22,874 bases of DNA, from the IMG/VR virus record IMGVR_UViG_3300032084_000510, positions 1 through 22,874 of that record, one strand, 5' to 3'. This DNA is from a virus. A model generated the notes under the pieces. It was not told the DNA's origin, searched no databases, and was given only the letters and a program-made list of their open reading frames with translations. The translations under genes were made by a program, and so were the position numbers. This document shows positions 1,111-22,063 of this stretch, one piece after another; the stretch's first letter is position 1; every line of letters begins with the position of its first letter.

Positions 1111-1860
1111 CTACGCCAGTAGATCATCAAACGCTTTGTCGATGTCATTGGTTTCTGCTTCAGCTTTACCGCCATACTTGGCTGTACCTTCTGAAACATC
1201 GGTGGAGCCGCCCTCAAGAGTCTGATCGAGTAGCTTTTGTGCATCCTCGGTCGTGGTCTCAGGGAATACTTCGCTGAAGACGGGCATAGTTTCTAAGATC
1301 GTATCGATTTCCTTATCGGTCTTAGAAAGCTTAGATGCCTTACGCATTGGGCGAAGCTCGGTGGTTGGATACATCTGTCCAGCCTTTTTACCGTACTCCA
1401 AACGAATATCAGTGCCCGTGTGTGGGTCAGTGATATCACCGTACTCAGGATCGAGAACGATGTTTAGCAAAGACTCATAAGTGGTCTTCGAGAAGCCCCA
1501 GATGCGAACGCCTTTGTCCTCTTCGCCACGAACGACGACGGGTGCAAATACTCGCATACGAGGGAAGAAGTTCCGAGCCTCTTGCTTGGAAGCTTCCGTG
1601 CCTTCGTTCCACAACTGATTGCCGAACTCAGCGATCGGATCGACCCGACCAAAGGTGCGTGGGCTAATCATGCTGGTGTTGTTATCAGCGCCCATGCGGT
1701 AATGGAAGAGGTAGTCACGGAATGGATCGCCATCCTTCGGACAAACGATACGAATAGTCTGTGTCCCCTCTTCTGGTTTCCAAAAGGTGTCGTTTGAGCC
1801 GCCACCCTTATTAGTCAAGGCAGAGTGCTTCTGCCGCATCTTACTTAAGTCAATACCCAT
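1111..1860 (-). CDS. 32: gp32-like single-stranded DNA-binding protein
   Basis: Predicted to coat single-stranded DNA at the replication fork and to cooperate with the recombinase and polymerase. The 249 residues show the T4 gp32 plan: a basic N-terminal arm (LSKMRQKHSAL, 5-15), an OB-fold core with the FFPRMRVFAPVVV strand at about 98-110 and a VRIWGFSKTTYESLL segment at 118-132, and an acidic C-terminal tail ending DIDKAFDDLLA, which in T4 gp32 recruits partner proteins. T4 gp32 is about 300 residues and binds zinc through a Cys/His cluster. This protein has a single cysteine (residue 40), so the zinc module appears lost. AAAGGAG lies seven bases before the start. The FKBP and recombinase genes follow. 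Confidence 0.9.
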   Translation of the reverse strand: MGIDLSKMRQKHSALTNKGGGSNDTFWKPEEGTQTIRIVCPKDGDPFRDYLFHYRMGADNNTSMISPRTFGRVDPIAEFGNQLWNEGTEASKQEARNFFPRMRVFAPVVVRGEEDKGVRIWGFSKTTYESLLNIVLDPEYGDITDPHTGTDIRLEYGKKAGQMYPTTELRPMRKASKLSKTDKEIDTILETMPVFSEVFPETTTEDAQKLLDQTLEGGSTDVSEGTAKYGGKAEAETNDIDKAFDDLLA

Positions 1861-1897
1861 TGTATTTCTCCTTTACTGGTTAGTTGACCTTGAGACC

Positions 1898-1926
1898 ATA
1901 TTAGCACACTTTTTACGGTGTGTAAT
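1898..1926 (-). promoter_or_regulatory. Candidate promoter with inverted repeat before the gp32-like gene
   Basis: Minus strand ATTACA (1926-1921), 17 bases, then TAATAT (1903-1898), about 40 bases before the gene start. An inverted repeat (plus-strand GCACAC 1904-1909 and GTGTGT 1918-1923, 8-base loop) fills the spacer and could act as an operator or hairpin. T4 gene 32 is controlled through its leader RNA; any similar control here is inference. Confidence 0.35.
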
Positions 1927-1963
1927 GCTTTTAAAATCTTTTTTGTTTTTACTGGCAATGCAG

Positions 1964-2173
1964 TTAGTTGTAGTGATCGTTGTCTTCAAGAAGCTGACGC
2001 ACAGCCTTGAGCCTGTATATAAAATAGAATATGGCAAAGATATATCCAAAAGTGAATCCTGTGACTTCAGTTACTACTATGTCATAAAAAATGCAGGCTG
2101 TCAAGAAAATAAGTATAAAATAATACCCACTAAGAAATGCCATGGCTCGATTTGTCAGTTTACCATTTTCCAT
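1964..2173 (-). CDS. Small membrane protein with two predicted TM helices
   Basis: I do not recognise this 69-residue protein. It has a short polar N-terminus, a hydrophobic segment at about residues 11-35 (AFLSGYYFILIFLTACIFY and onward), a second at about 40-57 (FTFGYIFAIFYFIY), and a basic then acidic C-terminal tail, consistent with a two-helix inner-membrane protein. The frame continues upstream to a TTG at 2248, overlapping the preceding gene. I prefer the ATG at 2173 because the upstream part is basic and not hydrophobic. Its Shine-Dalgarno is poor, and a perfect 10-base palindrome AAGTATACTT (2179-2188) lies just upstream. A longer open frame runs antisense. A holin-like role is possible from topology only. 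Existence is moderately likely. Confidence 0.5.
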   Translation of the reverse strand: MENGKLTNRAMAFLSGYYFILIFLTACIFYDIVVTEVTGFTFGYIFAIFYFIYRLKAVRQLLEDNDHYN

Positions 2174-2216
2174 ACAGTAAGTATACTTCAGGTTATTCTC
2201 TTTGTAAAGAAATATT

Positions 2217-2630
2217 TTAGTCGAATTTGATTTCGAGGATCTTCTCAAGTATTACTGGTATCGCCTTTAGGGTGTTCCCGTGCGATACTATAACATGACT
2301 TCTGTATTTTTCCCAGTCAAGTTTTAGGTGTTTGCCACGCTGACCGTCATGCTCTGCTTCAATTGCTAGATTGAGTCCGTTGATTGTATAAAGAGTATTG
2401 GTTTTCTTTTTGCGGTGCACCCTAATGGTGTAATACTCGTTCTTTATAATTGCCTGCCCTTGTAGGGATGAGTTATATGTTATAATTTTTTTCTTTGGGT
2501 CGGACTTCTGTGATAGTACAAAAATGAATTTATTAGTTAGAGTTACTGTGTCTAGTATTTTATTTATTGCTTTCTCTATTTCTTCTTCTTCGCCACGAAC
2601 AAATGTAGCCAGTAAAACTCCTCTTTCCAT
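2217..2630 (-). CDS. Uncharacterised 137-residue protein
   Basis: Not recognised. The protein is soluble-looking, mixed alpha/beta, with an N-terminal VLLATF strand, a helix EEEEIEKAINKILDTV (about 14-29), a strand FIFVLS (35-40), an IITYN segment (49-53), and a striking basic stretch TIRVHRKKKTNTLYTINGLN (68-87) that looks like the most constrained part. It ends with an amphipathic helix. There are no cysteines, signal peptide or membrane segments. The start follows AAGGGGGTG. It lies 40 bases after the FtsZ/tubulin-like gene, and its 3' end is close to the small membrane protein gene. The basic TN-rich segment might contact nucleic acid, which is only a guess. Confidence 0.75.
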   Translation of the reverse strand: MERGVLLATFVRGEEEEIEKAINKILDTVTLTNKFIFVLSQKSDPKKKIITYNSSLQGQAIIKNEYYTIRVHRKKKTNTLYTINGLNLAIEAEHDGQRGKHLKLDWEKYRSHVIVSHGNTLKAIPVILEKILEIKFD

Positions 2631-2670
2631 TATTACTTCACCCCCTTATATATTGAAACTTCTCGTTCTT

Positions 2671-2680
2671 TTATAAATAG
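2671..2680 (-). promoter_or_regulatory. Weak match to the late-promoter box, before the 137-residue protein gene
   Basis: Minus strand CTATTTATAA (2680-2671) shares seven leading bases, and eight of ten in all, with the CTATTTACTA boxes of the virion region, about 40 bases before the next start. It also encodes the last codons and stop of the upstream gene, so the match may be accidental. Confidence 0.2.
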
Positions 2681-3501
2681 GGTGTGGATTGTGGAATGTC
2701 CGTTAAGTACAAAGAATATCTAACGCTGATCTCTCCCTTCATTGAGTAAGCCTTAAAATATGTACTTGAATTTTGAGCGAGCTTGAGCGTTTGATGGTTC
2801 TTTATCTCCATTAGGGCTGTGGTTGTAAATTCATCCTCTGGAATCCCAAAATAATAAATTCTCTCTTTTACATCTTCTTCGTCAATGGGATAAAGAAGGT
2901 GGTCTTCTCCAGAGTCTGAGAAGTACCCTAGACTAACAATTCTAGTGGACTGTCGAGTAGCTTCATAATTTGTTCGGTCTGGGGTTACATGATCCATGTA
3001 TATCAGCATACTGACCAAGGAGTATATCTTGTTGTTTAGTTCCGACTCCACCTCCTTGAGAGTTACTTTATCTATATGCTTTTCCATTTCTTCCATTGAA
3101 ATAATGTAGAAACGCTCAAATTGACCAGATCTAGTCATTTCTTGCAGAACACCAAAAGTTATCTTATTATTAATTTTTTCTGTTGGGCTGCACCAAGTTA
3201 TGCTTGGGTATAAGTAAAGAATTGAACATGAACAACGTTTTATCATTTCAGCGATTCGCAACAAGCTGCCGTTAGATGCCGACGAGCCGCTGACTATTAT
3301 TAGTACCTCGTCGTTCTTCCTATACTTCTTGAATACCTTGGCTAGACTTTTAGAGTCGAACTTCTTTTCATACGTCTCCATATCTGCATGAGCACCAAGG
3401 GTCTCATCGTCAATCACGTCAACTAGATAATTCTTTTCCCTCTTGAAGGCTTCTGCTGTTTTGCACGCTGCGGTACCGATACCCAATATTCTATAAGCCA
3501 A
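2671..3501 (-). CDS. Divergent FtsZ/tubulin-fold protein
   Basis: No specific family is recognised, but the 276 residues run in FtsZ/tubulin order. A first strand and T1-like loop RILGIGTAACKTAEAF lie at 4-19, a strand VDVID at 27-31, and a strand plus T4-like loop VLIIVSGSSASNGS at 66-79, where FtsZ has GGGTGTG. Then come a strand SILYLYP (93-99), a helix and strand FERFYIISMEEMEKHI (128-143, like the FtsZ strand before its IPND motif), a long core helix (148-170), a T7-like loop near DRTNYEAT (175-182), a LGYFSDSGE segment (191-199, compare MGYAMMGSG in FtsZ), and a C-terminal beta domain ending ISVRYSLYLTDI. The glycine-rich nucleotide loops are degenerate, so GTP binding is doubtful. The start is TTG at 3501 after GAGGAAG, overlapping the polymerase gene by 11 bases. 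It could be a filament-forming, structural or decoy protein. Confidence 0.6.
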   Translation of the reverse strand: MAYRILGIGTAACKTAEAFKREKNYLVDVIDDETLGAHADMETYEKKFDSKSLAKVFKKYRKNDEVLIIVSGSSASNGSLLRIAEMIKRCSCSILYLYPSITWCSPTEKINNKITFGVLQEMTRSGQFERFYIISMEEMEKHIDKVTLKEVESELNNKIYSLVSMLIYMDHVTPDRTNYEATRQSTRIVSLGYFSDSGEDHLLYPIDEEDVKERIYYFGIPEDEFTTTALMEIKNHQTLKLAQNSSTYFKAYSMKGEISVRYSLYLTDIPQSTPYL

Positions 3502-4708
3502 GTTTCGTCTTCCTCATATCGCCATAGTTCTTACCAATGCTAACATTGACGCCGTACTGACCATACCTAGTTTGCGCCATGACATTCATCATTTTTTCTA
3601 GCAACGGTCTGTCACTCAGGGATAAATCAACAACAATCGCATCATGCAGAACAAAAGCCACCTCGCTGTTGGTGCCCCTGATGATATCCCAAACTTTCCT
3701 AAACTGCTCATAGCACAAATCAGCCGTCGTCGATTGGATTAGATAGTTGATAAACAAACGCTCGCTGGCTGCGATCTCTCTATGATATGGGGTCATAATC
3801 ATATCAACATCCAGATGTTTGGATTTTAGCGTCCTAGTGTTATAAACCTTCGACAGTGAACTTCTCCACTTTTTCAATTCTTCCGAGCCAGACCCATACA
3901 GCCACGAAAAGAATAATACTTTTGATTCTTCTCGTGAAACCTGGCTATCAAAAACGTTTTTTACATTCCAATCATGCACATCACCAGTTGGTTGCTCCTG
4001 TCCGCTAAGAGCTAGCAGAGTCCTCAACTCAGCACCGTTAAAATCCAATTCAACAAACATATCATTTGAAGGCACGATGATTTCACGATGCTGCTTCTTT
4101 AAGGTGAATATTGGGAAGGATCTTTGTGTGCAAGTTAGCCTACCTGTTCTGGTGGAAAACAGGTTGTATTTAATTTTTGTGTAACCTCTGCTGAGTCTAT
4201 CAAGTACCAATCTAGCAGTTGGCTCATTTTTAATGGCACGAACCTTTAGGGGATCAATATTAATATCGTAAGCTTCAACATCACGAAGCATTTCCAAAGT
4301 AGATAGCAAGTGTTTATAATTTGGTGGTCGTTTTGTGTTCTCGATAACCCAGTCACTGATCAGGTTTTTCATATTACACAGGTCTTTTAGAAACTTCTCT
4401 GGGATCAATTCAAACAAACAATGTTGCGATGTGCTGATCTTGGCAGTGGCATTTGCCTTAAAGAAAGCCTGCATTCTTTCTTTAACAATCTTCCACTCAT
4501 CCTGTAAGTGCTCTGGGCATATCTCATCGAGTGTCTTACCTAGAGCATATATCTCCGCATAGTCAACCCCTCTGTAACCTTCCATGGATGCTGTATACTT
4601 CCATGTTCTGGTCAGGTCATCAGGGAACTCTTCTGGGTTGTAGGTCATACTGCCACCGTGAAAGATGCCAGAACATTCTTTTTTATCGTCTATGGTTTGG
4701 AATAACAT
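3491..4708 (-). CDS. Stand-alone family A DNA polymerase domain
   Basis: Predicted replicative or repair DNA polymerase. At 405 residues it is about the size of the Klenow polymerase domain alone, with no room for a 3'-5' or 5'-3' exonuclease. Visible motifs are TGRL (188-191); motif A DFNGAELR (222-229, metal ligand D222, E227 matching Pol I E710); motif B with R259, K263, F267, Y271 in the RxxxKxxxFxxxYG spacing; IQSTTADL (324-331); and motif C LHDA (354-357). Motif C keeps the catalytic D356 but has alanine where Pol I has E883. The first 185 residues would form the thumb and have no clear motif. T4 itself uses a family B polymerase. AAAGGG precedes the start. The FtsZ/tubulin-like gene overlaps the 3' end. 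A separate exonuclease gene is expected elsewhere in the genome. Confidence 0.88.
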   Translation of the reverse strand: MLFQTIDDKKECSGIFHGGSMTYNPEEFPDDLTRTWKYTASMEGYRGVDYAEIYALGKTLDEICPEHLQDEWKIVKERMQAFFKANATAKISTSQHCLFELIPEKFLKDLCNMKNLISDWVIENTKRPPNYKHLLSTLEMLRDVEAYDINIDPLKVRAIKNEPTARLVLDRLSRGYTKIKYNLFSTRTGRLTCTQRSFPIFTLKKQHREIIVPSNDMFVELDFNGAELRTLLALSGQEQPTGDVHDWNVKNVFDSQVSREESKVLFFSWLYGSGSEELKKWRSSLSKVYNTRTLKSKHLDVDMIMTPYHREIAASERLFINYLIQSTTADLCYEQFRKVWDIIRGTNSEVAFVLHDAIVVDLSLSDRPLLEKMMNVMAQTRYGQYGVNVSIGKNYGDMRKTKLGL

Positions 4709-4746
4709 AATCCCTTTCTACCACATAAAATATGTTTTGTTCAATA

Positions 4747-6030
4747 TTAATAGTTCGGAATCGGTGAAAATAGGTCATCATCTTCATCCTGCATACCCCT
4801 GGGCAATGGAGCAAAGGGTCCAATTATCTCATTTTCTATAGTTCTAACAGCTTCCCTATATCCCTCAATGCTTGGTGCCTGACTGGGCGTCATTGCATCC
4901 ATGATGTTGTATAAGTGGCGAAGCCTTTTCTTATCCTTATGAAGATCTATTTTAATGCCCCGTTCAAACATTCTCATATAATAGTGACTTCTCACTGCCC
5001 AGCGGTATTTGTATTCACCAGTCACAAACGACTCATCCATCACTGCATCGCCAATCTGATCTCTTTCGTATACTCTACTAACTGAACCACACTTGTGGTC
5101 TTCTTTCATAATCTGCTCAAACAAGTATGGATTTCTCTCGACATACGCATTATACATATCCTTTAGATAGGCTGCTAGGATGTTCATATCAACAGGGCTA
5201 GTTATCTTATACATCGAATCCTGAATTATTGCAATGTTTTCTAGTATATTGTCTGTCAGCACAATACCGCTTTTTGCTGCATAGCGTTGCATAGCAGCGG
5301 AGCCCAAATTAGCAATCAAACGCCAAGGGGCGTTCCTATCAACAAAAAATCCAAATTGTTTTGCCGTATCAGCGAAAAATAAAAAGTTTGGATCATTGAT
5401 GTAGGTTGCAGATTTCTCAAAATCATCCGAATAGTCTCCCCTACCTATATCAATCACCAATCCTGTAGTATATGGAGTACAATAAGTGCTCTCAACAAAT
5501 CCAGTTCTCGTAAGCGGCAATAGTTTACCTAAATGCTTTGAAAATCCGCCAAAAACCTCTAAAAATCCAGAAAAGCCTTTTATTCTTTCGTTTTGTTTGC
5601 TAAAAATAAGGAATTGCTCTACAAATACGCTAAAAATTTGATCTTTCATGAATCTATCGTACTCTTGGTTGACACTGCTCCACCCACGGACCACTTCCAA
5701 GTTAGCAAATGGACCTCTAGGTACTATTTTGCCTTCTTTCATGCAAGCATCCAGTTTATCAACTAAATCACCGAAAGCATCGGCTATAAAGTTTGGTGCG
5801 AACATAGCAGCGTTGTTTTTAGTTGCCTTTAGTGGTGAAAGAGTACTTTCTCTAAGTGTTATAATCTCATTATCCATATTTACTCTACCATATAACCTGT
5901 TGTCATCCCATAGAGATATGTGATTTGGAATGAGGTCCTCAGGGAAAACCTGTTCATAGTAAACCTTTTTCTCCCTGAAGCTATCTGATGAGCCAAGCGA
6001 ATTGTTTCCAAAAGATACTGGTCTGGTCAT
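4747..6030 (-). CDS. Probable virion protein of unknown function
   Basis: Not recognised. It has 427 residues, is soluble, rich in aromatic residues, and without signal peptide or membrane helices. Notable segments are HISLWDDNRLYGRVN (about 37-51), an AAMFAPNFIADAFGDL stretch (74-89), GFSGFLEVFGGF (about 152-163), a GFFVDRNAPWRLIANLGSAA core (about 227-246), and an acidic, proline-containing tail. Its ATG overlaps the TGA of the hub gene (ATGA) and has AGAGGAG nine bases upstream, so it is translationally coupled to the last baseplate gene. This makes a baseplate or tail-associated role more likely than a replication role, although the polymerase gene follows. I cannot assign it to a T4 baseplate protein. 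Confidence 0.82.
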   Translation of the reverse strand: MTRPVSFGNNSLGSSDSFREKKVYYEQVFPEDLIPNHISLWDDNRLYGRVNMDNEIITLRESTLSPLKATKNNAAMFAPNFIADAFGDLVDKLDACMKEGKIVPRGPFANLEVVRGWSSVNQEYDRFMKDQIFSVFVEQFLIFSKQNERIKGFSGFLEVFGGFSKHLGKLLPLTRTGFVESTYCTPYTTGLVIDIGRGDYSDDFEKSATYINDPNFLFFADTAKQFGFFVDRNAPWRLIANLGSAAMQRYAAKSGIVLTDNILENIAIIQDSMYKITSPVDMNILAAYLKDMYNAYVERNPYLFEQIMKEDHKCGSVSRVYERDQIGDAVMDESFVTGEYKYRWAVRSHYYMRMFERGIKIDLHKDKKRLRHLYNIMDAMTPSQAPSIEGYREAVRTIENEIIGPFAPLPRGMQDEDDDLFSPIPNY

Positions 6031-8687
6031 TTATTACTACTCCTCTTGCTGGCGCTTTTTGGAGCAACCTCTTTATATGCCTGCCATCGGCAATCGAGCG
6101 TTGTTTTGAAATCACCCTCATTGAGATCATGAGTTACTTTTGTAATAAAATAATACCCACCAATGCCAATATTTATGGATGCGTTTTCCATAGCGTAGTC
6201 GGCATCGATATATACCATCTGACCCTGCCAAAAATGTGGAGCACCGACTAGATCGACCGTGGCATTTTGTGGCACTGTTGGAAAGTCTGCTGAACCATCA
6301 CGGATATTCATTGTCCTGATATGCTCCGACACATCCATCTCGCTGAACTTGATCGATTTAACGGGTCCTCTGCCTGCCGCAAGCACCAGGTGATAAATAC
6401 CCCTGCCGTTATCTACCTTCGCTTCTCCTGGGAGTGACGGATTTTGAACCATTGATAAAATTATGTAGTTGTTCAAATCTTCCATGTTGATACTACTCTC
6501 AGCTTCTCTCTTAACCGAAAAGCCTCTTGGGCTTGATGTGCTGGTATTGAATTCTACTGATGTTTTTGTATATTCTTTTCCTGGCTTCAGCGGTTTGCCA
6601 TTAATATTAGGCGCTGTGAATGGGACAATGAATGGCTCAAATTGAGAAGTACCCTCTCCAGTGAGTCCCGCATTTGACATCTCAGCGGCAACGAACTTCA
6701 TAAAGTCATCCAAGAATCCACGAAGAGGCACATTGGTTACGTTTCTCTTTACATATTTTTCAAAAAAGAAGTATTCAAATGCAGACAGTTGGATCGGAAT
6801 GTCTGCTAAGCTAAACGAGGTAACCCCCTCTTTTGGTAGGTCGATGAGAACGCTATCTAGGACAACCCTAAATGTACCCTCCTTTTTGTTGATATTATGA
6901 GTAAAGAATCCTGAACTGTGAAATGCTGTGTCTATTATGTCCCCAACTCGTACAAATGTAATCGGTACCAGGAAATTACTATTTCCATCTTTATCCTTAT
7001 TCTTGGCTGCTGCGGGTGACACAGTAAATGGCTGTGAGGAAGCCAAGCCGCCTCTTTGGTCTTTTCTCGCTTCCTTGCTTGACGCACCAGCAGCGTCGAA
7101 AGTCGCCGAACTGATCTGTGCCGCTACAAAATTTGGCGGGCTAGATAACCCACGCCCTCTTGATGCCGACGCATCAACAGAAGTAGATACTGACTCCTTA
7201 TCTGTATTTTCATCGCTAAGTTCAGCAGTAATCCCAAGCTCCGTGGCAGGGACCTGGAATGACATTACTCCTTTAGTTGCTTCGAGGCGTTCTAGAAAAT
7301 TCCTGTAAACGTTCCCTTTAATAGCATCACCAATTAGTTTGTGTATCTTTTTAAGCTTGCTCAGATTTTCACGAAGCTTGTTGAGTTCTTTGCCGCCGTC
7401 TGCTGATGATTGTAATTTAACTATTTCAATGTCCTTCTGAGTGATAGCGATTAAGTGCTTAGTAATCTCAGGGTCTAATCTTATTCTGGCTTTATTTTTC
7501 GACAGCACTGTTGCACTCTGCAAGGCTACCTTTTTTTGCTGTAGGAGGCTGTAAAAATATCCATCTTTTAGTTTCGCTCCTCTAAGCCTTGGCAAAGCAT
7601 TGAGATCAAGCTCATGAATTGGTTTACCAAATATTTCCGTAATCCGTAGCATGTTTTTTGTTTTTGTGTTAGTTACACCAATTGGATTGCCTGTGCGGTT
7701 TCTAACATTAGGGTGCGGTGTTGATCGCTGAACTTTCCACGGATTCATAAATATATTGGCATCGTTTGCAGACATACTATCGTCTGCATAACCAGTCATC
7801 TCTATAGATAATTTTATCTCACCCTGATCGCCAAAGTCAATACTATACTTATTAACATTAAGCAACAGTGTCAAGGCTGATCTTTCTAAGAAATTATATA
7901 AGTTTCTAGTTGGCACATTACCAGTACGATCTTGTGGTAAATCTTCACCTTTGTTTGTTGCCCAGCCGATTACAGCTTTAAGTGGTGCTGGGTCGAGGCG
8001 CTTAGCGACGGGTCTTACTTTCTCCGCTGGTCCTAACTGTACTCTCCCCGCCTTGTCTACCTTGAGTCTGGCTGCCATTGCTTTGCGCTCTTGAGCCAGA
8101 GCTTGCATTTTTGTCTTAGGGTTGTCCTGACCACCTTTATTATAGGGCTGGTTCTTCTTCATCAACTTTATCAAATGCAAATAAGGACCCTGTGAAAGGT
8201 CTGCCATATTCTTGAAGTATAGCTCCATGCTAGCTTGTACTGACTTAAACTTAAATTTATTGTCAATCGACACATGGAATCTAGTGATGCCCACATCCCG
8301 ACCTTTGGCTTGACTAGCAAATATATCTAGATTTCCGCCCTGAGTTGCTTGGCTATATGTGGCTGACGTATGCCCACTAAAATGAACAGGTATATCAGGT
8401 TTTGGCTTTCCATCAGTGCCCTCACCCTGTCTCAAGTATATTCTTATTTTTGGCATCAGACCACTCAACTGTGCTGGCAAAGCTCTCATGTAAGCCTCAA
8501 TGCCCGTAGTTTTATTAAATTGTGATACAAGCTCGCAAGGATCAAATTTCGTATGGACAAGATGTCTAGTAAATTTAGTGCCACGAGTCTTATGCATCGC
8601 TGGCTCTAAAACCTTCAGGCTGTTTATTAAGTAAGCCTGGATATTACCTCTCAGTATCGCACTATCTTGTTTATCGTTGCTGGCCAT
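6027..8687 (-). CDS. Large putative baseplate hub protein
   Basis: Probably part of the central baseplate hub to which the tube and spike attach. It has 886 residues. The C-terminal 70 or so (VDLVGAPHFWQGQMVYID, then IGIGGYYFITKVTHDL and FKTTLDCRW) resemble the end domain of gp27/gpD-type hub proteins, where a beta-rich domain ends with a G-x-Y-x-I-x-x-V-x-H strand. A second beta-rich stretch at about 570-610 contains FVRVGDIIDTAF. Between roughly 380 and 450 there is a charged helical insertion (RLDPEITKHLIAITQKDIEIVKL and onward), followed by a Ser/Ala-rich linker. It is much longer than T4 gp27 (391 residues). The gene follows the gp53-like gene by one base and is coupled to the next gene by ATGA. 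The hub assignment is inference from the C-terminus and position. Confidence 0.6.
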   Translation of the reverse strand: MASNDKQDSAILRGNIQAYLINSLKVLEPAMHKTRGTKFTRHLVHTKFDPCELVSQFNKTTGIEAYMRALPAQLSGLMPKIRIYLRQGEGTDGKPKPDIPVHFSGHTSATYSQATQGGNLDIFASQAKGRDVGITRFHVSIDNKFKFKSVQASMELYFKNMADLSQGPYLHLIKLMKKNQPYNKGGQDNPKTKMQALAQERKAMAARLKVDKAGRVQLGPAEKVRPVAKRLDPAPLKAVIGWATNKGEDLPQDRTGNVPTRNLYNFLERSALTLLLNVNKYSIDFGDQGEIKLSIEMTGYADDSMSANDANIFMNPWKVQRSTPHPNVRNRTGNPIGVTNTKTKNMLRITEIFGKPIHELDLNALPRLRGAKLKDGYFYSLLQQKKVALQSATVLSKNKARIRLDPEITKHLIAITQKDIEIVKLQSSADGGKELNKLRENLSKLKKIHKLIGDAIKGNVYRNFLERLEATKGVMSFQVPATELGITAELSDENTDKESVSTSVDASASRGRGLSSPPNFVAAQISSATFDAAGASSKEARKDQRGGLASSQPFTVSPAAAKNKDKDGNSNFLVPITFVRVGDIIDTAFHSSGFFTHNINKKEGTFRVVLDSVLIDLPKEGVTSFSLADIPIQLSAFEYFFFEKYVKRNVTNVPLRGFLDDFMKFVAAEMSNAGLTGEGTSQFEPFIVPFTAPNINGKPLKPGKEYTKTSVEFNTSTSSPRGFSVKREAESSINMEDLNNYIILSMVQNPSLPGEAKVDNGRGIYHLVLAAGRGPVKSIKFSEMDVSEHIRTMNIRDGSADFPTVPQNATVDLVGAPHFWQGQMVYIDADYAMENASINIGIGGYYFITKVTHDLNEGDFKTTLDCRWQAYKEVAPKSASKRSSNK

Positions 8688-20251: not shown

Positions 20252-22063
20252 TCAGTCAGTTAGGTGCAAGCAGACAACTAGACCATACATGTCTGGGCGA
20301 ACCATCTTCTTAGCATAGCGAGTCATCACGCCCTTGCGGGGCACGAAGTCTTCGGTACCAAAGATGGTAGGCGTGACTTGTAGTGGGACGTAAGGAGCAT
20401 AAACATAGCCACTTTCGAGGAAGCTATTGCCCTTGCGACCAACGAGAACCACGTTGCGTGGGAAGTATGGATCTACCATAACGTCCATCTTGCGACTGAT
20501 GGTTCCAGCCTTGGAAGCACCCCAGTTACCACTGTTAGCTTCTGAATCGCCAGCGACGTCCGCACGGAACCCACTGGTGAACTCAAGAATAGCAGCAACC
20601 TCTGGTGATGTAACGATGAAGTTAGCGCCACCACGGAGGGTCTTACGATGAATGAGAGATGAAACATCATTGATATTCTCAAGGAGGGTTTCATACCATT
20701 CTGAAACAGTACCTGTAAAGTCAGGGGCAAGACTTGTTGTAATGTCTTTGCCTGTCTCACGATTCAAGAATTGACCTGGGCGGCGGCTCCAGTAACGAGT
20801 ACCAGCAGTTGCGCCGTTGATGAGGTCCTTAAGGATCTCTTGGTCAATTTCCAAACCAATGTGCTCAGAAAGAACACTTGTAAGCTCGACTTCAGCGTCG
20901 AGGTTATGATAAGCATTCAAGTCCTGTGCAAGCTCTGGGCTCCACTTGGCTTTGAGCTTACGAGTCTGAGCCGTAACAGCCGTGGAATCAATCTTAAGAT
21001 CGATTTCTGGGATGTCAGCTTCATTTTCAAAGGGCAATCCGCTGCTAGCAGCAAGGACTGAACCTGCTTCGCTGCCTTGACCAATGTTGTCAACGACAGC
21101 AAAGGTAGCGGCTGGAACACGGTTTTCAGCAACACCACGATCCATGCTGTCAACTTCGGCGTGGAAGCCAGCAGCGTCATCGCCATCTGCGGAACCCGTA
21201 GTACGAGCGACGACGATAAGACCTGTCGAACCACTTAGTGGGTCAAGCTGGGTCAAGCGTCGGACCTGAGTACCATGATCAAATGCAAGATCAAGTGCTG
21301 TGAGGTTGTTTGTGTCAAAGTTAGTCAAGTCAGAGACAAGAATCGATGAAACTGTAACAACCGAACCTGAAAGATCAGGATCAAAGCGGAGGAGCTTATT
21401 AAAGTCCTCTGCGGTGGAACCGTATGCGGAATCTACGAATACAATATCTGTAGCTGCAACGGTATCACTCGATGCGGTACCAACAGCAATGAGGGCACAA
21501 TCGACTGATGCGAGTGATGCTGTAGGTGCTGAGTAGCCACTGTTCAAGTTATAAAGACCACGCTCTGCGAGCAATGGGTCGTTAGCGCCTGCTGATGTGG
21601 CACCGTCTGCAAGCTGAACGCCTAGACGGAGGTCCGAACCAACACGACCACCGCCGTAGATGGACTGGCCATCAACAGCACCTGCTGCTGCTTTGCCTTG
21701 GCTATCACTGATACCACCACGGTCTCCGCTGTATACGAAGTCCATGAAGAATATGAGACCACTTGGTAGACTCATTGGTTGCACTGAAACTAGGTCCTGT
21801 GCAAGTAACCCGCCGAATACACGACGTACAATTGGGAATGCAACTGCGGCAAATCCCTCAACATCTTGGTTGCCCATGCTGCTTGCTTCTTTAAGTAGCT
21901 GTGCAGCTTGGTTCTCCAACAAACGTGCCATGCCGTTACGGGCAGTGTCGTCTGCTAGACCTTCTAGAAGACCAGTCTTTTCCCACTTGGTGAGAAGAGC
22001 TTCGCCTTCTGATGCTAAGGAACGTGCTCGAATGCCTTCTGTAAGCTTTTCTATTACGCTCAT
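20252..22063 (-). CDS. 23: Major capsid protein (gp23-like)
   Basis: Main head-shell subunit with the HK97 fold. The N-terminal 70 residues form the prohead delta region, containing LLENQAAQLLKEASSMGNQ. The mature protein then begins near EGFAAVAFPIVRRVFGGLLA (70-89) and QDLVSVQPMSLPSGLIFFMDF. After a Ser/Asp/Ala-rich insertion (about 120-345) come AQTRKLKAKWSPELAQDLNAYHNLDAE and a TRYAKKMVRPDMYGL ending. Possible cleavage sites for a gp21-type protease (L/I-x-E) are at 32-34, 48-50 and 57-59; which is used cannot be told. It has 603 residues against 521 for T4 gp23. TAGGAG precedes the start. It follows the scaffold gene by 24 bases and is closed by a strong terminator. Confidence 0.95.
   Translation of the reverse strand: MSVIEKLTEGIRARSLASEGEALLTKWEKTGLLEGLADDTARNGMARLLENQAAQLLKEASSMGNQDVEGFAAVAFPIVRRVFGGLLAQDLVSVQPMSLPSGLIFFMDFVYSGDRGGISDSQGKAAAGAVDGQSIYGGGRVGSDLRLGVQLADGATSAGANDPLLAERGLYNLNSGYSAPTASLASVDCALIAVGTASSDTVAATDIVFVDSAYGSTAEDFNKLLRFDPDLSGSVVTVSSILVSDLTNFDTNNLTALDLAFDHGTQVRRLTQLDPLSGSTGLIVVARTTGSADGDDAAGFHAEVDSMDRGVAENRVPAATFAVVDNIGQGSEAGSVLAASSGLPFENEADIPEIDLKIDSTAVTAQTRKLKAKWSPELAQDLNAYHNLDAEVELTSVLSEHIGLEIDQEILKDLINGATAGTRYWSRRPGQFLNRETGKDITTSLAPDFTGTVSEWYETLLENINDVSSLIHRKTLRGGANFIVTSPEVAAILEFTSGFRADVAGDSEANSGNWGASKAGTISRKMDVMVDPYFPRNVVLVGRKGNSFLESGYVYAPYVPLQVTPTIFGTEDFVPRKGVMTRYAKKMVRPDMYGLVVCLHLTD

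Follow-up and report, generated by a model that had tools for sequence, protein, structure and literature searches.

A predicted tubulin-fold protein family encoded between the DNA polymerase and single-stranded DNA-binding protein genes of T4-related phages

The DNA analysed here, referred to as the window, is the 22,874-nucleotide (nt) virus record IMGVR_UViG_3300032084_000510 of IMG/VR (positions 1 to 22,874). An earlier note on this DNA proposed that the gene at 2671-3501 encodes a tubulin/FtsZ-fold protein with degenerate nucleotide loops, located next to a polymerase gene in a T4-related phage. This core claim is supported by AlphaFold2 modelling and by structure searches with Foldseek and VIA. 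The open reading frame (ORF) was found present and complete at exactly these coordinates on the minus strand. The gene and its neighbours are listed below, with protein lengths in amino acids (aa) and E-values as E.

1111-1860, minus strand: gp32-like single-stranded DNA-binding protein (SSB) gene (PF08804, E 4.5e-6; PHROG 1192, E 4.5e-19)
1964-2248, minus strand: 94-aa ORF from the ORF list, with no usable family match in Pfam or PHROGs
2217-2630, minus strand: 137-aa gene, common to many far-T4 loci but in the tubulin-fold family present only in the clade of the window (locus comparison)
2671-3501, minus strand: predicted tubulin-fold gene, 276 aa, TTG start (ORF call; AlphaFold2 model; Foldseek and VIA matches to FtsZ, CetZ, TubZ and tubulin)
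3491-4708, minus strand: family A DNA polymerase, 405 aa (PF00476, DNA_pol_A, E 4.6e-15)
4747-6030, minus strand: gene for a 427-aa protein, next to the polymerase on its upstream side; 155 examined loci, including L003, L014, L154 and L197, have relatives

The 5' start of the tubulin-fold gene overlaps the 3' end of the polymerase gene by 11 nt. Purifying selection acts on the tubulin-fold gene. Between the window and L003, the nonsynonymous distance (pN) is 0.074 and the synonymous distance (pS) is 0.78; because pS is saturated, no pN/pS ratio is given for this pair. The promoter and terminator scan stayed near chance (16 versus 13.0 and 6 versus 3.3). The same window carries a gp23-type major capsid gene (20252-22063), which is nearest to those of LR756508, Microcystis phage Mel-JY01 and Flavobacterium phage immuto, with Rhodothermus phage RM378 lower in the list. 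These phages form the loose group often named far-T4.

Searches with the single window protein found 0 Pfam matches, only unusable PHROG matches (E 0.12 and 0.65) and one chance row among the PDB sequences (an integrin, E 0.41). The initial IMG/VR matches to it were three contigs with 100, 100 and 86% identity, and tblastn of two members against 50,697 phage records gave no match. The family was reached through the neighbouring 137-aa gene, which is common to the window, LR756508 and immuto and has at least 571 relatives in a scan of its own. Among the 80 loci fetched with it, L014 carries a homologue of the tubulin-fold protein that is 29% identical and sits in the same slot, and polymerase and tubulin-fold alignments including L014 reached many further loci. 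The loci fetched per scan were the best 80 of 126, the best 80 of 135 and the best 80 of at least 571. The iterated profile collected 97 ORFs, 74 of them distinct, with none at E between 1e-4 and 10. A later scan with a 9-row subgroup raised the total to 177 ORFs and 118 distinct members (effective number of sequences 56 at 70% identity), after stop-to-stop ORFs under 60 aa were excluded and ORFs identical over residues 40-200 were merged. Uncultured viral contigs account for 117 of the 118.

With the 74-row alignment, AlphaFold2 modelled the window protein at a predicted local distance difference test (pLDDT) score of 93.8 and a predicted template modelling score of 0.92; 248 of the 276 residues reached a pLDDT of at least 90, and the C-terminal residues were lowest. 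The model consists of an N-terminal domain of alternating strands and helices, then a helix of 23 residues (148-170) where core helix H7 is expected, and a C-terminal domain that is largely beta, so that nucleotide-binding domain, H7 and C-terminal domain are all present in the predicted structure in tubulin topology. In the Foldseek search against the PDB, FtsZ, CetZ and TubZ were at the top (E about 1e-11, probability 1.00), and the best 50 of the 232 matches at E ≤ 0.001 were all FtsZ, CetZ, TubZ or tubulin. VIA gave the same four families for all 50 matches listed (Z 21.1-23.7), led by CetZ 3zid (Z 23.7, 256 residues, 2.9 Å) and including TubZ 4ei7 (Z 22.9, 273 residues, 3.2 Å), with FtsZ and the tubulins at about 21-22. 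Its structural alignment spans residues 1-276 and both domains. All 704 aligned chains reached Z of at least 8, and 296 of the 1000 chains stayed unaligned. The structure prediction and fold search proposed in the earlier note therefore end in the tubulin/FtsZ superfamily across both domains. The order of FtsZ elements that it had read from the sequence matches the model, but the name FtsZ is too narrow, as CetZ, TubZ, FtsZ and the tubulins are about equally near. Judged by the model, the window protein almost certainly has the tubulin/FtsZ fold.

Sequence profiles gave a fainter picture. In the profile-profile comparison, also proposed earlier, PhuZ was indeed the best (E 1.8e-4, probability 48%), but FtsZ reached only E 0.026 (probability 1.9%), an unrelated polymerase profile reached E 0.22, and the outcome is weak overall. 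A global hhalign alignment with FtsZ overlapped in 12 columns only and was discarded as meaningless. The family profile found two chance rows among the PDB sequences (E 0.23 and 1.8), and among the 25 families listed by the Pfam scan of the 74 members no E was better than 0.0038. The PF00091 model matched 0 of 6 records but was positive in 13 of 14 control genomes, so the family lies beyond the reach of this model.

These searches also bear on the explanation that the protein is a structural remnant, or a misassigned Rossmann-like protein without tubulin kinship. Weak matches to TrkA_N, a Pfam Rossmann family, occur in 24 of the 74 members (best E 0.0061) and outnumber those to Pfam Tubulin (5 of 74, best E 0.0055), and five of the 74 match a PHROG UDP-glucose dehydrogenase family weakly at the N-terminus (best E 0.0039). 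Moreover, AlphaFold2 with four near-identical rows gave a poor model (pLDDT 38.8), which was not used. The TrkA_N matches are read here as a consequence of the shared GxGxxG strand-loop-helix. The model from the deep alignment, its structural matches across both domains and H7, and the retention of the ORF in 118 distinct members under purifying selection all argue against this explanation, which is regarded as highly improbable. The structural remnant, one of the roles raised by the earlier note, is disfavoured because of the purifying selection and the near-constant gene context.

In 103 of the 104 distinct members that have at least 1.3 kb of upstream sequence, a same-strand family A polymerase gene is located within 3 kb upstream of the tubulin-fold gene, so the coupling to a polymerase gene suggested for the window holds across the family. 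The sole exception is L235, apparently an odd contig, in which the upstream ORF is unrelated. All 88 members testable on the downstream side have an SSB gene there within 2.5 kb. These counts omit loci with short flanks (14 of 118 upstream, 30 of 118 downstream). When only the loci fetched with tubulin-fold patterns are counted, the figures are 61 of 62 for the polymerase and 57 of 57 for the SSB, the seeds of these patterns having come from polymerase-linked loci. Conversely, of the 80 loci fetched by their polymerase, 79 contain the tubulin-fold gene, and the contig of the 80th ends inside the polymerase. The gap between the two genes was measured in 68 of 79 loci, with start codons chosen by the analyst; in 45 of the 68 they overlap, by 1-16 nt, in 66 they lie within 156 nt, and in the other two they are about 1.1 kb apart. 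Pairwise distances of the polymerase and the tubulin-fold protein correlate over 104 pairs with r 0.85, a value reached by 0 of 1000 permutations, which reflects joint inheritance and not contact.

The features within the tubulin-fold gene are as follows.

3463-3483, minus strand: T1 loop, residues 7-13, GIGTAAC, mostly GLGxxGC in the family (residue census)
3259-3291, minus strand: T4 position, residues 71-81, SGSSASNGSLL (residue census)
3124-3144, minus strand: segment QEMTRSG (residues 120-126) closing helix 106-124, in which all 118 members have Q120, R124 and S125
3094-3096, minus strand: T6 position, residue 136 (aligned with FtsZ N165), which is M in the window and N in 103 of 118 members (profile alignment, census)
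2992-3060, minus strand: helix at the H7 place, residues 148-170, with the guanine-side positions 156 (N) and 151/152 (V and E in the window, where most members have an aromatic residue) (model, census)
2941-2991, minus strand: T7/H8 region, residues 171-187, with no helix in the model and without the FtsZ motif N.D[FL].[DE] (model, census)
2674-2940, minus strand: C-terminal domain, residues 188-276 (AlphaFold2 model, VIA)

The T1 and T4 loops of the window read as the earlier note described them, but their oddity is partly a family trait. The family follows a T1 pattern of G7-x-G9-x-x-G12-C13 (G9 in 117, G12 in 110 and C13 in 112 of 118 members), and its commonest T4 forms resemble G-S-G-x-[IV]-S-G-A-S-L, with G72 in 114 and L81 in all 118. 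The exact string GGGTG[ST]G, named as the T4 signature in PMC2875224, is found in 0 of 118 members and 0 of 8 PhuZ rows versus 6 of 6 FtsZ rows. For the T7 motif N.D[FL].[DE] the counts are 0 of 118, 1 of 8 and 6 of 6, respectively. Because GGGTG[ST]G is absent from all 118, the family is not filed as a canonical GTPase. However, PhuZ is mostly without both strings as well, so their absence alone excludes neither the fold nor filament formation.

The residues that would contact the guanine base are distributed differently. A weak FtsZ profile alignment maps column 136 to N165, column 152 to F182 and column 156 to N186. The corresponding trio consists of N/D136, Y/F/H(W) at 151 or 152, and N/D156; 103 of 118 members keep it, or 102 when His and Asp are excluded. 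The window has M136, V151/E152 and N156 at these positions, and its five-row subclade never has N at 136. In the tree of the family, clade I (14 rows including the window, branch support 100/99) has lost the trio in all rows, whereas clade II (104 rows) keeps it in 103, with L170 as the lone loss; two changes of the trio label are needed. Loss is the simpler direction because FtsZ, tubulin and most of the family have the guanine site. The 137-aa gene follows the same division, as it was found downstream in 9 of 9 testable rows of clade I but in 0 of 79 of clade II; a less strict count gives 13 of 104, all in clade I. The loss of the trio and the presence of the 137-aa gene each map to about one branch, and their association is therefore a lead rather than statistics. 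From the residues kept, most members are predicted to bind nucleotide, and this is probable; from those lost, the clade of the window is probably nucleotide-independent. The degeneracy of the loops is thus split in part, the altered T4 and T7 strings appearing as a trait of the whole family and the loss of guanine contacts as that of one clade. Of the GTP independence proposed earlier, what stands is a suggestion for the clade of the window, as the trio is kept elsewhere.

Beyond H7 the window model has no helix between residue 170 and the next strand at 188, and helix H8 appears to be missing from the window protein. According to PMC3678025, the longitudinal contact in phiKZ TubZ, tubulin and FtsZ is formed by loop T7, the base of H8 and S9. 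The canonical head-to-tail contact would therefore have to differ in the window protein. An acid occurs at position 173, just after H7, in 82 of 118 members (T in the window), and N/H171 together with D/E173 in 78 of 118 could be a shortened T7. The invariant residues Q120, R124 and S125 should face away from the nucleotide by topology, and we know of no FtsZ counterpart of them.

The main rival explanation holds that the protein forms a PhuZ/TubZ-like cytomotive filament for positioning or segregating phage DNA or sites of replication, with an atypical and perhaps differently fuelled form in the clade of the window. Such a filament would fit the fold, which is that of the filament-forming TubZ, the glycine-rich T1 loop and guanine trio retained in most members, and the possible T7 acid at 173. 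The uniform absence of the T4 and T7 strings compared with FtsZ and the missing H8 of the window model speak against it. So does the C-terminus of the window protein, which is without the acidic tail of PhuZ; no TubC-type repeat array was found within 1800-5200, and no match to the phiKZ shell protein (chimallin) was found in six records, in a search without a positive control. On balance the filament is considered unlikely.

Fold mimicry and the changed T7/H8 side of the window model would suit another explanation, in which the protein acts as a decoy or cap for host FtsZ, having one normal and one altered face, and stops division. Apart from this fold mimicry, nothing was found in favour of the host-division decoy that the earlier note had raised. 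Phages such as T7 act on FtsZ through other proteins (Gp0.4). The position beside the polymerase and SSB genes in nearly all loci and the co-variation with the polymerase are unexpected for a host-takeover gene, and there is no FtsZ-specific similarity, CetZ and TubZ being equally near. A decoy is accordingly given little credence.

Comparison with known systems places the family apart from each of them. TubZ, a plasmid and phage tubulin, is used by extrachromosomal DNA for partition. The window protein shares its fold over 273 residues, but the identity in the structural alignment is 14% and the family is without the canonical T4 string and the FtsZ-type T7 motif. The gene is encoded with a DNA polymerase and an SSB instead. 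The TubZRC system has a TubR gene and a repeat centromere; for the window, only two-copy repeats were seen in 1800-5200, and the neighbours identified are the polymerase, the SSB and unassigned ORFs, with no search aimed at TubR having been made. CetZ, the best structural match, keeps its GTPase motifs; it is a cellular archaeal protein, 12% identical to the window protein. FtsZ agrees in fold, element order and top Foldseek rows, but the window protein lacks GGGTGTG, N.D[FL].[DE] and, in the model, H8, and falls about 30 residues short of the core chains of S. aureus FtsZ (304-308).

PhuZ is likewise phage-encoded with a tubulin fold, mostly without the exact strings, and has the best score of the three sequence profiles tried. 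However, PhuZ belongs to jumbo phages, whereas the family records searched whole are 111-185 kb. The window protein is also shorter and ends in LTDIPQSTPYL, while the PhuZ rows end in acidic tails. In phiKZ, PhuZ (31.9-32.9 kb) does not adjoin the annotated DNA polymerase (40.6-42.8 kb). PhuZ homologues occur in huge phages (PMC7162821), and PhuZ biology is treated in PMC13282480. The phage tubulins of the literature consulted are PhuZ or TubZ, and PMC7824862 names two distinct representatives from jumbo phages.

FtsZl1 and FtsZl2 are earlier divergent families of the superfamily, also found by distant comparison and context, but through the GTP-binding signature region; they are tied to membrane remodelling in a source whose available text does not mention phage (PMC2875224). 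Among predicted viral models in BFVD, Foldseek ranks first a 452-aa protein labelled 'FtsZ' from an uncultured phage (E 6.8e-11). The FtsZ- or tubulin-labelled proteins of uncultured phages there (such as A0A6J5RW92, A0A8S5UFG9 and A0A8S5USZ9) share the fold (E 6.8e-11 to 4.9e-6), but they are 347-452 aa long and 11-12% identical, a comparison of fold, length and identity alone. Among the papers listed by searches of the open-licence PubMed Central literature, no title or start of an abstract presents a gene of this fold as linked to a phage DNA polymerase, although such a paper may exist. On the predicted structure, the family is a new, minimal and divergent branch of the tubulin/FtsZ fold and is not filed as FtsZ, PhuZ, TubZ or CetZ.

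Some observations concern the wider distribution of the family. In the PHROG scan of the 74 members the best match was PHROG 24038, of unassigned function (6 of 74; E 7.1e-5 at residues 170-247 of L169), possibly a related family in known phages. Each of seven records of the group (111-185 kb) contains exactly one tubulin-fold match, and none was found in eight other records, namely three viral contigs of the wider 137-aa group, LR756508, immuto, RM378, Mel-JY01 and phiKZ. A scan of genome contigs from GTDB, for which just the subgroup alignment was used, gave a single match on a WOR-3 metagenome-assembled chromosome (L197). Phage replication genes and the tubulin-fold gene lie there at 2514-7873, flanked by masked runs and cellular-looking genes; because of the masked runs, the arrangement could reflect scaffolding instead of a prophage. 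Among hits H101-H126, many records filed as phage carry an apparently ordinary bacterial ftsZ, probably from host contamination.

Other observations concern the neighbouring genes. The residues of polymerase motifs A (D, E, R), B (R, K) and C (H-D) are unchanged in all 104 linked polymerases, and motif B ends in Y-N in 89 of them and in Y-G in 15. Pfam shows no 3'-5' exonuclease domain in the 405-aa polymerase, whose N-terminal 170 residues are conserved but unexplained. The 427-aa protein has no Pfam match and PHROG matches at E 0.19 or worse. An FKBP-type peptidyl-prolyl isomerase gene (606-1025; PF00254, E 5.5e-19) lies near the SSB gene, and by eye L235 has an FKBP-like ORF after its SSB. 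The 137-aa gene sits where T4 has regA, but it was rejected as RegA, PF01818 matching 0 of 6 records. In many far-T4 loci that lack the tubulin-fold gene there, such as L015, L047 and L048, the slot between the polymerase and the 137-aa gene holds varied ORFs of about 550-850 aa and is perhaps an insertion hot spot; 19 ORFs from this slot in other far-T4 loci were inspected and dropped, being unrelated by eye and unmatched by the family model.

The reading preferred here, at close to even chances, is that the protein is a tubulin-fold accessory of the phage replication machinery, a scaffold or positioner of the polymerase or replisome that binds nucleotide in most members and is probably nucleotide-independent in the window. 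We infer the role in replication from the gene context, since the gene lies between the polymerase and the SSB, often in overlapping frames, and is inherited jointly with the polymerase. Among the roles raised by the earlier note, organising replication is the best fit to this context. The protein would most likely bind or position the polymerase or the replication complex, and it would function as a scaffold or a short assembly and not as a rapid filament driven by GTP, a choice moderately favoured because both canonical strings are absent and H8 is absent from the window model. In clade II the guanine site is kept, and nucleotide probably stabilises or switches the protein; in clade I, including the window, the guanine contacts are lost and the protein would most likely work without nucleotide. 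A stronger form, in which the tubulin fold is a standing phage replisome subunit and obligate partner of the polymerase in a large group of uncultured T4-related phages, and a nucleotide-free static module in the clade of the window, is rather doubtful.

Several points weigh against the accessory reading. Support for the fold from sequence alone, by profile-profile comparison, is weak, and for this reason the fold claim rests on the AlphaFold2 model, itself strong. The mapping to FtsZ N165, F182 and N186 comes from a weak profile alignment and not from superposed coordinates. The tree is midpoint-rooted, and long branches come together inside the group without the trio and also at its base. 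The window protein is the sole member modelled, so the absence of H8 covers the window only. Since N/H171 and D/E173 are present in 78 of 118 members and PhuZ too does without the exact strings, which makes their absence no bar, hydrolysis and filaments are possible in most members. Plain co-inheritance gives the same correlation with the polymerase, and gene neighbourhood is no proof of a physical partner, as phage operons also group genes by expression time. An argument from two conserved faces was dropped as well; their mean conservation (2.28 and 2.43 bits versus 2.12 and 2.02 bits elsewhere) differs too little to carry weight, and the faces were grouped after the alignment was inspected.

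The family is a widespread, divergent variant of a known fold, and its interest comes from the tie to replication genes and the graded loss of the guanine site. If the accessory reading is true, it would be a further kind of phage tubulin, found in T4-related phages and tied to replication genes instead of to a nucleus or to partition. It indicates that the tubulin fold can persist after the loss of its signature motifs, and it offers a natural series, within one gene neighbourhood, from a guanine site kept to a guanine site lost. It would also link a cytoskeletal fold with replication, suggesting that a fold of the cell skeleton was taken into DNA replication.

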